In this document: piece after piece, positions 2,234 through 20,141 of the stretch
Layout: each line of letters opens with the position of its first letter
Position numbering within the stretch: position 1 is the stretch's first letter
From: Phycisphaerae bacterium
GTDB lineage: Bacteria > Planctomycetota > Phycisphaerae > Sedimentisphaerales > Anaerohalosphaeraceae
Assembly (NCBI GenBank): GCA_014859965.1
Contig: JACZKQ010000048.1
Span: 1 to 64,000, forward strand
Direction: 5' to 3'
Length of the DNA stretch: 64,000 nt
The notes under the pieces: generated by a model
Told to the model about the DNA's origin: nothing
Databases searched by the model: none
What the model saw: only the letters and a program-made list of their open reading frames with translations
Translations under genes and position numbers: made by a program

Positions 2234-2488
2234 TCATAGCCCCAGCGCCCCATCCTCGATCTCCAGCGCGACCGCCAGAGCCAGCGCATTGCGAAGCACA
2301 AACGCGCCATAATCCCGAGCCAGCCGCGCAACGGCCGCACTCCCCTCCGCCGTCCACCCGCACTGCGCGGAAAGCTGTTCTTCAACATCCTCCCAAACCC
2401 CCGCCCTGCCTTGCTCTCCTAAAACGCTCCTGTACTCCTCAACCAGCCCGCCCAGCGCAGCCTCTTCCTGAACATCGCTCCCACGCAT
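2234..2488 (-). CDS. Small conserved-looking protein of unknown function
   Basis: An 84-residue minus-strand gene. The internal ATG at 2488 is chosen over one ten codons upstream because it has an excellent Shine-Dalgarno sequence (AAGGAG, then 6 bases, 2493-2499 region). The product is acidic and probably all-helical, with a hydrophobic amphipathic C-terminal part (VLRNALALAVALEIEDG). There is no signal peptide or metal motif. The alanine/leucine-rich helix ending in EIEDGxLG looks like a conserved core, but I do not recognise a named family. An overlapping plus-strand frame (2176-2490) is basic, proline-rich and lacks a ribosome site, and is taken as its shadow. Confidence 0.6.
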   Translation of the reverse strand: MRGSDVQEEAALGGLVEEYRSVLGEQGRAGVWEDVEEQLSAQCGWTAEGSAAVARLARDYGAFVLRNALALAVALEIEDGALGL

Positions 2489-2717
2489 AACCGCTCCTTC
2501 CCGTCCTCTTGCACGCAAAGCGTGCGTACACCTTTCACATTTTCGCTACACCCATCTAATTTATACCCCGGAATCATCACCCGGCCGCCGAACGATTTCA
2601 ACAACATTCCACGAAAAAGCAAAGATTCAAAACCACTGAAAAAATCCCAACGTGACGCATAGTCCGTTGACCCACCCCCCAAACCCTGCTCTCATGGAAT
2701 CAAAAAAGGAGCCCCCA

Positions 2718-2972
2718 ATGACCGACCCGCTAAACGAAAAAATACTGACCCTTCGCCTCCCGTCCGGCATGGTAGGCCAAATCATCGACGCCTTGTGCGA
2801 AAGAATGCAAACGTGGCGAGCCACCGAACGCTACCTCAACGACCCCGACGCCCTCACCACCGAACTCATCGAAGAATGCTCAGACCCACAGGAAGCAAAA
2901 GCCATCGCGGACTGCTACCAGCAAATCATCGAAGAAATCCAATCCCAGCGCAAAGCCCAAACCCGCAGGTAA
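2718..2972 (+). CDS. Small hypothetical helical protein
   Basis: An 84-residue protein whose ATG at 2718 follows a strong ribosome site (AAAAGGAG then CCCCCA). An in-frame upstream start at 2652 would add a proline-rich stretch with no ribosome site. The sequence is acidic and helical, starting MTDPLNEKILTLRLP, and contains MVGQIIDALCERMQTW followed by a segment rich in E, D and A. It has a single cysteine pair, widely spaced, and no membrane segment. No function is recognised. It lies between the divergent small gene at 2234-2488 and the convergent nuclease-helicase gene at 3077. Confidence 0.6.
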   Translation: MTDPLNEKILTLRLPSGMVGQIIDALCERMQTWRATERYLNDPDALTTELIEECSDPQEAKAIADCYQQIIEEIQSQRKAQTRR

Positions 2973-3076: not shown

Positions 3077-5053
3077 CTACAGCTCACGAAAACCGATGCC
3101 TTTAAGGTAGTCAAATGTGCAATCATAAAACTCAGGGGGCCGCGTCGGGTCTCCTGTGTCGCCTGGCGGTATAACAATGACCATGCCCTGTCGAGCGCGA
3201 GTAAGAAGAACCCGGTATGCATTCTTCAGGTACTGTTTTCGTTCAGTTTTTTTGATGCGGTTCCAACGATTCCCACGAAACGACCAATGCTCCCAGCCTT
3301 GTGACGAGTATCGAAAATCTGCATCCCACGTTACACATGCCCAATCAAGTTCCAGGCCTTGTACGTCGAATTCCGTGGCAACATCTTCAAGATAGTACGA
3401 CGAGCGAATATCTTCCTTGCTGTCGAGAAACCAATGAATGGGGTCCATGGGCGACTTGACATCGATTGCGTGTGGCTTCAAACGTTCGGCTTGCGACGAT
3501 ACTACGATGCCGTAACGCTCTGTTCCACGTGCCTGCCCCTTCAGCCATTGCTTTGCCTTAGCGAGATCACGAGTTATAACTATGGGATACTTGGCTTTTG
3601 CCTTCTGCAAGGCTAAGCGAGCCTCATCAATCTGACAGTCCAGCAACTGTTTCACCAGTAAAGACACATTCTCCGCACGAAAAGAACGCATAGACACAGC
3701 AAGATGCAGTTCGTCTTGATAGCATATATTCGCGTGGGTCGCGATTCTTTCCAACAGTTCACCTGCTCCGTACTCACTATCAGTAAGTCGCGATGATAAA
3801 TAAACGTCCCAATGGCGAAACGATCTCACAAGGGATTCTGCCCATTCATTTATGCCTGCTTCACCGGTATTGATTTCTTGGCCCCCGCCTACAAGACATA
3901 CAATAACAGCCCAATCCTGATGACGGTCAAGGCACGATATCAGAAACTCTGGTTCAGATTTATTGAAATCGAGTTTCTTTTTCTTTCGAAGCATGAAACT
4001 GCAAGTCTGCTCTAAATCCCAAGCTCGTTGAGCTTCGTCAAACAAGGCAACATGCTCAATAGGCGGCAAGTTTACATCGAGAAGGCATTCATCTCGAAAA
4101 TGATGGACATTTTGAACAAAGGCCTTTACTTCCCCAAACGCTTCACCTTTCCTAATCCTTTGCCCTAGCTCTTTCACACGGCGAACTTTATCGCGTGCAA
4201 GTGCTTCCCGGAGTATGGCCACGAGCGGTCCATTTCCGGAGAGAAACACGCTGTAGAGTTCGCTCGTTTTGTCAATGTGTGTCGTTGCGATATTAAGCCC
4301 CACCAAGGTCTTACCGGCCCCCGGCACGCCTGTCACAAAACAAATCGACTTGCGGGACTTTTCTTTAGAAGTACGTATAATGTTAGCGATCGCCGCGCTC
4401 GTTTCCGTGAGGTTCCTTGCGTTAGCGTCGCTCCGCGAAATATCTTTAACAGCATGACCATTATAAAGCGCTATCGCAGCTTCAATGATTGTTGGGGTCG
4501 GCTGATAACGCCCGCTCTCCCATTGGACGCGATTTATCGCAGGGCCTTCGGCAAATCGCAGTACATTTTTGAATACCTCCCCTAAGCAGTCAACGTTGCT
4601 CTTTATTACAAAAAGCATTTTGTCGTTGTGCGGTGTCGTGCGCACACACATGGCCATCGCAGGAGCCTTGGTAGCGACGAGGATTGGGGCAATAAACTGT
4701 TCATGACTCGTTTCATGAAAGTTTTTTAAATCCAAAGCGTAGTCCCAGACTTGGTCTATGGCACCAGCGGTGAATTCCTTCTCGCCAATTTTAAATTCCA
4801 GCACAAAAATAACGGCGCCGATGAGAACAATCGCGTCGATTCTACGGCCCATCCGGGGAATGGAATACTCGAGATAGACACTTCCGTGAAAACCCGGCAA
4901 AACCGTTTTCAAAATCGTGAGTTCTGCAAGCCACGCATCGCGCTGCTCAAGTCCCAGCGGGAAGTCATTATTCTGCGCCATTAGCCCAAGGATTTCTTCT
5001 GGTGTTGCTCTTAGGAACTCGTCAATCGAGCCGGCGTAGTATTCTCTTTTCAT
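3077..5053 (-). CDS. PD-(D/E)XK nuclease plus DUF2075/Schlafen-3-like helicase protein
   Basis: A 658-residue two-domain protein. Residues about 40-170 contain a restriction-nuclease-like core: [10 protein letters not shown] (Asp73) followed by VLEFKIG (Glu86, Lys88), i.e. D-x12-E-x-K. From about 235 on is a P-loop helicase-like domain of the DUF2075 (Schlafen group 3-like) type, with Walker [10 protein letters not shown] (241-249), Walker [12 protein letters not shown], a GGGQEIN motif and a C-terminal VLLTRARQG. Such proteins are thought to act in nucleic-acid restriction or antiviral defence; that role here is inference. The ATG at 5053 has GAAGG five bases upstream; an in-frame TTG at 5065 is an alternative. 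Base composition is clearly more AT-rich than the neighbours, which suggests acquisition by transfer. Confidence 0.85.
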
Positions 5054-5156
5054 CGATACCTTCAACTGTTACCTGAAAGACAGCACATTTAGACAACATT
5101 ACTCGTGCGATACTTCGGTACGCCCAGACGCCTGGGCTTGTCCAAACAGGCTGTCC

Positions 5157-5354
5157 GTGCCCGTGAGGCTTCCGCTGTCGCAGTTACACAACAACGGAAT
5201 CTCTCATTATATCCCCAGTCTTCTTTTCCGCAACCTTTGCGCACCCTTTCAGCGAAGGCCAAGGAAATTCGGCTGGCAAGTCCTCGTCATCTGGGAATGC
5301 CAAACCCGCGACCCCGGCCGACTCGAATCCCGCCTCCGCGCCTTCACGACCTGA
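5157..5354 (+). pseudogene. Remnant of a Vsr (very short patch repair) endonuclease, C-terminal end
   Basis: Only the last 25-35 codons of this 65-codon open frame are recognisable. They contain GWQVLVIWECQTRDP followed by GRLESRLRAF, matching the conserved C-terminal end of Vsr mismatch endonucleases (GWxVLVxWECE...LxxRLxxF). The upstream part has no catalytic Vsr motifs in any plus frame, so the gene is 5'-truncated or frameshifted. Vsr genes normally sit beside cytosine methyltransferases; none remains here. It lies next to the minus-strand nuclease-helicase gene, so both may come from one former defence island. The true limits of the remnant are uncertain. Confidence 0.6.
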
Positions 5355-5518: not shown

Positions 5519-5645
5519 CCTCACGCGTACCTGTTTTGCATTTTTTTTGCGTTTTTCCGCACTTTTTGGTCGTTTCTGCACCCTCACGCGTACCTAATTG
5601 GCGTTTTTTGCGTTTTTTTTGGGCCGTTTTGGTCGTTTCTGTACC
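5519..5645. repeat. Two-copy 63-bp tandem repeat, T-rich
   Basis: CCTCACGCGTACCT occurs at 5519-5532 and again at 5582-5595, exactly 63 bases apart. The rest of each unit also matches imperfectly: a run of T, then GCGTTTTT, ending GGTCGTTTCTG at 5568 and 5631. The plus strand is strongly T-rich. It lies in the gap before dxr. Its function is unknown; it could be slipped-strand duplication or a protein-binding array. Confidence 0.8.
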
Positions 5646-18986: not shown

Positions 18987-19994
18987 TCAGCGTCTGCGCC
19001 GCAATACCAGACCGCCCAGTGCAAAAAGTATAAGCGAAGCCGGCTCGGGAACGAATACGCGGCTGATCACAGTAGTATCGTTCAAGACTTCGGCCACGTA
19101 CATGGCGCCATCCGGGCCAAACGTAAAGACTCCATTCAAAACATAGGCCAATGCCTCAGTGGATCCGTCTTCTGCTACCCTCCAGATGCGCCGGCCGTAA
19201 CCGGCTCCACCATAAGCGTATAATGCGCCACCAAACATCAACCCTGTCGTATCAAATTCAAGACTATGAGCCAGTATGAGTTCGGGGGCAAATGCACTGA
19301 ACGTTCCATCCGGCTGAAACGCCAGTATGCCACTAATCGCTCTGTCGTCTGGGAACTCAGTAGCCACGTACATGAGACCACCATAGGCATTCTGAGGGGC
19401 AAAGGCAATGTCCCAAGGAGTGCCCGCGATTGCGTATGCTCCAAAGTAGTGAAACAATTCTGTCGAACCGTCGGACGTTACACGATATATGGAGTCGCTG
19501 ACCCCGGTGCCTACGTACATTGATCCTCCGAAGTTTCCATACCGATCAATCGCAACCGGCGTAGGCTGGTTGAAGCCTTGACCGGCAAACGGCGATTTTG
19601 TGCCATCCAGACTTATACGGGTTACCTCTCCTTTGGTCCAATTCGTTTTTTCGAACTTGTCAGCCACATAGAGGTAATCACCATAGGCGGTGCCGCCGCC
19701 CCAAGTAATTGTCTTTGGATCTACAAGCCCATCCGCAAACAGGCTTGCAGTGCGATCAGGCGAAACCTTGTAGATGACTCCATCGCGTCCGTACTCGATT
19801 TGTTCCTGATAAGTGACATATAGATCACCGCCAGGCGCAAAGGTCATATCGGTAGGTGACGTTCCGCCTTTAAAGACGGCATAGGTCTGCATGAGATAAT
19901 CGGAACTAAATAGCGTTACCCCCTGCACCGGGGCACATGCCCCAAGCAACAGTACCATCCCTGCAACCACCCAGTTGATCTTGTGCTGTCCCAT
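18987..19994 (-). CDS. PEP-CTERM-anchored secreted beta-propeller-like protein
   Basis: A 335-residue exported protein. The ATG at 19994 has GGGAGG eight bases upstream and gives a clean signal peptide (KINWVVAGMVLLLGACAPVQG). The body has repeated blades of about 45 residues with phrases such as GGDLYVTYQEQ, YGDYLYVADKF, GGSMYVGTG, YGGLMYVATEF and GPDGAMYVAEV, resembling NHL/SMP-30 propellers. The end is a textbook PEP-CTERM sorting tag: VPEPASLILFALGGLVLRRRR minus its last residue in length terms, i.e. VPEP, hydrophobic helix, arginine cluster. It is likely processed by an exosortase/archaeosortase and linked to exopolysaccharide export, fitting the surrounding glycosyltransferases. It has its own promoter and terminator. 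Confidence 0.92.
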   Translation of the reverse strand: MGQHKINWVVAGMVLLLGACAPVQGVTLFSSDYLMQTYAVFKGGTSPTDMTFAPGGDLYVTYQEQIEYGRDGVIYKVSPDRTASLFADGLVDPKTITWGGGTAYGDYLYVADKFEKTNWTKGEVTRISLDGTKSPFAGQGFNQPTPVAIDRYGNFGGSMYVGTGVSDSIYRVTSDGSTELFHYFGAYAIAGTPWDIAFAPQNAYGGLMYVATEFPDDRAISGILAFQPDGTFSAFAPELILAHSLEFDTTGLMFGGALYAYGGAGYGRRIWRVAEDGSTEALAYVLNGVFTFGPDGAMYVAEVLNDTTVISRVFVPEPASLILFALGGLVLRRRR

Positions 19995-20112
19995 TTTCTC
20001 GGCCTCCCAATTGGTTCCTATTGTGCACACGCCCCACTGGCATGTACTCAGGTGGTCGCCTTGAGATAAAAACTCCAGAAGACCACAATGTATGCCAATT
20101 CGTATATGAGCC

Positions 20113-20141
20113 ATTAGACCAAAAGCTCACCCAATTGTCAA
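20113..20141 (-). promoter_or_regulatory. Sigma-70-like promoter for the PEP-CTERM gene
   Basis: On the minus strand TTGACA (20136-20141) and TCTAAT (20113-20118) are 17 bases apart. The implied 5' leader is roughly 110 bases. Confidence 0.7.

Follow-up and report, generated by a model that had tools for sequence, protein, structure and literature searches.

A PDC-S41 nuclease-helicase with invariant active sites, a candidate defence gene recurrently found beside truncated vsr genes

Nhi (nuclease-helicase immunity) is an experimentally tested defence system in which a single gene supplies both the nuclease and the helicase (PMC12904381). Restriction-modification loci of the dcm-vsr-MORC-AIPR kind carry other helicases (Iyer et al. 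2008; PMC2292703), and the linker domain of vertebrate Schlafen proteins has been termed "of unknown function" in published accounts (PMC8789055). PADLOC holds a further family, PDC-S41; in the literature searched we located no paper that names it or gives an experimental record for it. Here we describe a PDC-S41 gene in a 64,000-nucleotide stretch of a Phycisphaerae bacterium (contig JACZKQ010000048.1; the window). The protein matches the PADLOC profile end to end (residues 5-662 on profile positions 1-653 of 657, E 4.9e-284) and is a member of this already known family, not of a new one. The first-pass annotation had called it a candidate defence gene, in keeping with the place that PADLOC already gives the family.

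The gene lies on the minus strand at 3077-5053 and encodes 658 amino acids from an ATG (ORF list and PADLOC match). The ORF is also intact from an alternative TTG start at 5065 (3077-5065, the 662-aa reading), and most homologues use the ATG. The C-terminal half is an SF1 helicase domain (3167-4351, minus strand; Pfam and structural matches) of PF09848, the former DUF2075, which covers residues 239-633 of the 662-aa reading (E 3.8e-84). Its score of 283 bits against a curated cut-off of 24 places it in Schlafen group 3. No other Pfam family exceeds its cut-off in the protein, no match falls before residue 220, and NCBIfam has no model for the nuclease-helicase. The N-terminal PD-(D/E)XK nuclease domain (4457-5053, minus strand; residues 1-199) carries D73, E86, K88, Q101 and Y105. 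Numbered from the ATG, D73-x12-E86-x-K88 is invariant in all 85 full-length sequences from many phyla, and so is Q101-x3-Y105 (QxxxY) after the E-x-K; the helicase motifs, i.e. Walker A (GVPGAGKT), DEAQ, GGGQE, RSFR, QGLE and YRVLLTRAR, show no or almost no variation in the same set. Since the nuclease triad, QxxxY and all SF1 motifs are invariant, both activities are evidently under selection.

AlphaFold models of the whole protein and of the N-terminal 200 residues (AF2) are fair (pLDDT 75.6) and good (pLDDT 89.2), respectively. The predicted nuclease core reads helix-strand-strand-strand-helix-strand with the catalytic residues on strands 70-78 and 81-88, and the two models together support a PD-(D/E)XK fold for the first 200 residues as well as the helicase fold. 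The best structural matches of the isolated N-terminal domain are PD-(D/E)XK nucleases (Can2, Z 8.8; Cdn1, 8.5; McrC, 7.8; NucS, 7.8; Hjc, 6.6), with Shedu SduA and AdnA as further matches, and the helicase matches UvrD (Z 12.5), Dda (11.8), Pif1 (11.0) and SLFN11 (10.6). Sequence searches of the PDB returned no credible homologue. The earlier proposal that a restriction-type nuclease core is joined to a Schlafen-3-like P-loop domain in one chain thus agrees with PF09848, the invariant triad and the predicted folds. The term "restriction-type" holds for the PD-(D/E)XK core, but the motif is nearer the RecB/Cas4 type, with its QxxxY, than a classical restriction enzyme.

The nuclease domain (4457-5053) also matches residues 400-555 of SLFN14, the linker domain (Z 6.7, rmsd 4.1, 126 aligned), which occupies the same position ahead of the helicase. 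Whole-model alignments to SLFN11 and SLFN14 span residue 7-10 to 627 with poor rmsd. The linker likeness is a lead, as a Z of 6.7 falls where a common arrangement alone may explain the match; no paper that ascribes a nuclease fold to this linker was located in the literature searched. An RNA-directed, Schlafen-like abortive enzyme, cutting host or phage RNA after sensing infection, would share its helicase family with vertebrate SLFN group III and would account for the resemblance to the SLFN14 linker. It appears improbable to us, however, because the Schlafen core RNase domain has no Pfam match in the protein and E-x-K together with QxxxY in a PD-(D/E)XK domain is characteristic of DNases.

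The family is spread across phyla. Among the best 80 loci in one scan of genome contigs, identities of 59-74% extend over nearly the whole length, and identity is 60-74% across Planctomycetota, Bacteroidota, Chloroflexota, Nitrospirota, Patescibacteria and Pseudomonadota. The tree mixes phyla and is at odds with taxonomy; the rows nearest to the window gene come from Nitrospirota, Ignavibacteriota and Planctomycetota. Presence is patchy: a homologue occurs in 8 of the 40 near relatives and in 44 of the 294 genomes sampled from the phylum (about 15%). With a GC content of 48.5% and a GC3 of 48.9% the gene has the lowest GC of the 43 ORFs of at least 150 aa in the window (medians 58.0% and 69.9%), and in most hosts its GC is lower than that of the flanks. 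The transfer postulated earlier on base composition is therefore well supported by identity, tree and GC alike, as is horizontal spread of the family in general. The contrast originally quoted (45% against 68% in dxr) was overstated in size, the whole gene having 48.5% and the whole of dxr 58.0%. The second-lowest GC of the 43 ORFs (52%) belongs to 18990-20114 (minus strand). The hosts are for the most part metagenome-assembled genomes, which may contain contamination or chimeras, and gene calls come from a simple ORF picker.

This distribution also speaks to an ordinary DNA repair or recombination helicase-nuclease of the Dna2/AddAB type that moves horizontally by chance. A RecB/Cas4-type motif beside an SF1 motor and the strong conservation would suit such an enzyme. 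Patchy presence, single copies in variable spots, restriction-modification and toxin-antitoxin neighbours and a phylum-mixing tree would not, and we give the repair reading little credence.

Upstream of the gene, at 5262-5354 on the plus strand and thus divergent from it, lies a C-terminal remnant of vsr that is broken on its gene-facing side (six-frame reading and Vsr HMM). The Vsr remnant noted in the first-pass annotation is hence confirmed, although it is short, with about 27 C-terminal residues of Vsr (WQVLVIWECQTRDPGRLESRLRAFTT, ending at a stop; E 2e-4, HMM positions 107-134 of 143). Between it and dxr, two AT-rich tandem copies of 63 bp, 78% identical, occupy 5519-5644. The remnant is not a local accident. 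Of 115 PDC-S41 loci, 18 give matches to the Vsr HMM, 21 pieces in all, and every piece is no more than 700 bp from the gene; the 1.06 Mb of flank beyond has none (Fisher p 3e-19). Some loci are related pairs (L058/L062, L065/L078 and L011/L026), which leaves at least 12 cases that are independent. The complete sequences of 46 host genomes (180 Mb) hold 18 Vsr matches, and 10 of them fall no farther than 700 bp from a PDC-S41 gene, with 0.006 expected. When coordinates in the 294 genomes are compared by eye, 3 of some 47 PDC-S41 matches have a Vsr match no more than 300 bp away; as a control, none of the roughly 155 AbiEii matches listed lies within 50 kb of one. Recurrent, directional truncation of vsr is the new and surprising part of our results. 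In the literature searched, neither a link between PDC-S41 and vsr nor vsr fragments as insertion scars were found described.

The pieces belong to different vsr subtypes and lie in both orientations on either side of the gene, in three topologies: an N-terminal piece upstream on the same strand; a C-terminal piece downstream on the same strand (L002, L020 and L027); and a C-terminal piece upstream on the opposite strand (the window, L008 and L093). These are the topologies that would be expected for arrival inside vsr in either orientation. In L002 and L027 an N-terminal piece of dcm also survives upstream. We reject one ancestral insertion event in vsr, given that N-terminal pieces reach profile position 72 or beyond and C-terminal pieces start at 41. 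Within the stretch read, the second half of the same vsr was never found flanking the gene, which makes insertion with deletion, or replacement of a neighbouring gene, likelier than clean insertion. No clean empty site was found, and the region upstream of dxr has no shared neighbour across the family.

Could the gene be an element that moves itself by homing into vsr (or dcm), with the nuclease there for this spread instead of for defence? Of the 19 truncated pieces, 18 have lost more of their gene-facing end, vsr coding picks up again at the stop codon of the nuclease-helicase gene in L002 and L020, and close relatives often have little in common beyond the ORF. Against this, the two halves of one vsr never frame the gene within the stretch read, the break points are not constant, vsr is lacking beside most copies, and similar vsr scars occur at toxin-antitoxin pairs. 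Mobility of the bare ORF is itself weakened by L044 and L045, which share 6.9 kb upstream: their differing immediate flanks reflect turnover at one locus, and bare-ORF homology elsewhere may have the same origin. Homing is accordingly very improbable in our view.

The scars that lack PDC-S41 occur in family f52, from the same phylum, where toxin-antitoxin pairs separated by 5' vsr pieces precede intact vsr-dcm operons. Most of these scars measure 70-130 bp and most open with the vsr start codon; their identity to the vsr that follows is 73-94% (L128, L129 and L137); in L135 the following vsr is itself cut short. With their repeated 5' pieces the toxin-antitoxin arrays of L128, L129, L135 and L137 (G235, G297, G276 and G328) resemble a cassette array; the pairs, named from sequence by eye, are DUF433/DUF5615-like and PIN-like. 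At L012:8300-10060 there are three consecutive 5' vsr scars, and behind the first lies an older, truncated copy of the PDC-S41 5' end. A similar joint follows the vsr scar upstream of the gene in L058/L062 and in the scars of L129, L135 and L137 (ATAAATTAAAGTTTTTAAAT-like, in different phyla), which may be AT-rich chance. Taken together, the vsr pattern suggests exchange of defence genes at dcm-vsr loci that are in decay.

No partner gene is conserved across PDC-S41 loci. Adjacent genes include C5 methylases, Vsr, HpaII, AIPR, DUF4420, HipA, Fic, YhcG, TOTE and ResIII, and PADLOC model families matched number 107 and 232 at ±1-2 genes versus 83 at ±6-7, counts of redundant models and not of proteins. 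Housekeeping neighbours (dxr, RecA, aconitase) are common as well, also for the window copy. A search of the neighbourhoods for defence islands, as recommended at the outset, hence gave a divided answer: restriction-modification and toxin-antitoxin neighbours are there, but housekeeping contexts are also frequent. Two small ORFs lie near the window gene. ORF-B (2694-2972, plus strand; motif EECSDxxEAxxIAD) is convergent with it, 105 bp downstream, and occurs in 4 of 40 relatives, in 3 of them beside PDC-S41, and beside PDC-S41 in L043 too. ORF-A (2234-2488, minus strand; motifs GxFxLRNALALA and EDG) occurs in 3 of the 40, in 2 of them near PDC-S41, and beside it in L043 and L056 too. Both look like companions of decayed restriction-modification loci. 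Where they occur away from PDC-S41, their neighbours are an HNH-like protein (L200, named by eye) or, in L203, restriction-type genes together with a truncated vsr.

One locus, L131, forms an operon in the order vsr-dcm-PDC-S41-DUF4420-AIPR, the same composition as in MORC/AIPR restriction-modification loci already known (PMC2292703). PDC-S41 might then be the restriction-like effector of MORC/AIPR-type dcm-vsr systems, with lone copies left as orphans after decay of methylase and vsr. Further loci would fit: an intact vsr followed by a PDC-S41 remnant (L133), dcm, an IS, PDC-S41 and an intact vsr (L031), and a C5 methylase just downstream (L053 and L081); comparable loci with other helicases have also been described (PMC2292703). 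However, neither a methylase nor vsr occurs at the majority of the 115 loci, intact full-length copies that stand alone have kept every active-site residue, and the mixed subtypes, orientations and sides of the vsr pieces are not predicted by a single ancestral operon. We regard the orphaned-effector explanation as unlikely, if worth keeping in mind.

Our preferred reading, which we consider probable, is that of a stand-alone DNase that is driven by its helicase and directed against foreign DNA; as mobile cargo, it would repeatedly enter dcm-vsr loci or take the place of parts of them. We infer DNA as substrate, coupling of helicase and nuclease, and defence against phages or plasmids. The SF1 motor would load on nucleic acid and move along the strand, and the fused RecB/Cas4-type domain would cut it; incoming phage or plasmid DNA would be destroyed, or the cell stopped, without a partner protein. 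By analogy with Nhi, the trigger could be a phage SSB or a replication intermediate. The gene would spread horizontally with little beyond its own ORF and settle recurrently in variable spots, preferentially in or beside dcm-vsr restriction-modification loci whose vsr and dcm become truncated or replaced. A defence function is likely but inferred. Housekeeping neighbours in many homologues count against it, as do the near absence of phage or plasmid copies (one unannotated "phage" scaffold and four plasmids turned up in searches of phages, plasmids and viral contigs, with none among the viral contigs) and a high conservation that many arms-race genes lack. RNA can be the target of Schlafen relatives, so the substrate may be other than DNA. 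As a well-conserved single gene in about 15% of the sampled phylum genomes and in many other phyla, the nuclease-helicase is an easy first functional target.

A bolder combination of both leads is possible but tentative. Here vsr would be a recurrent insertion landmark, an entry door for defence cassettes, and the linker "of unknown function" of group III Schlafens would be a degenerate PD-(D/E)XK nuclease, such that the linker-helicase half of SLFN5/11/14 would descend from a bacterial nuclease-helicase of PDC-S41 type. If the linker were a dead nuclease, these bacterial proteins would be a natural model for the origin of a vertebrate antiviral factor.

Compared with known systems, the protein shares with Schlafen group III (SLFN5/11/14) the helicase family PF09848 and possibly a linker at the nuclease position; it differs from Schlafens proper in that their core RNase domain has no counterpart in it and its nuclease triad is intact. 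Dna2, AddAB and RecB likewise link a RecB-type nuclease (QxxxY) to an SF1 motor, and in Dna2 the nuclease is also placed before the helicase. Their helicases are of another family, however, the patchy mobile distribution is a feature of PDC-S41, and none of the positions in the nuclease domain that are invariant or nearly so is a cysteine, in contrast to the four Fe-S cysteines of Cas4, AddB and Dna2. With dcm-vsr-MORC-AIPR loci the family has a recurrent neighbourhood in common, L131 being a full operon of this kind; those loci have an SF2 helicase and MORC, whereas here an SF1 nuclease-helicase mostly stands alone, and the window has only the vsr remnant and no methylase beside the gene. Nhi is likewise a single-gene nuclease-helicase and acts on phage DNA, but its model matches only the Walker A region (residues 219-273, E 7.6e-5) and not the whole length. 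The same length, the same architecture and a whole-length match are found in PADLOC PDC-S41, a single-gene phage defence candidate.
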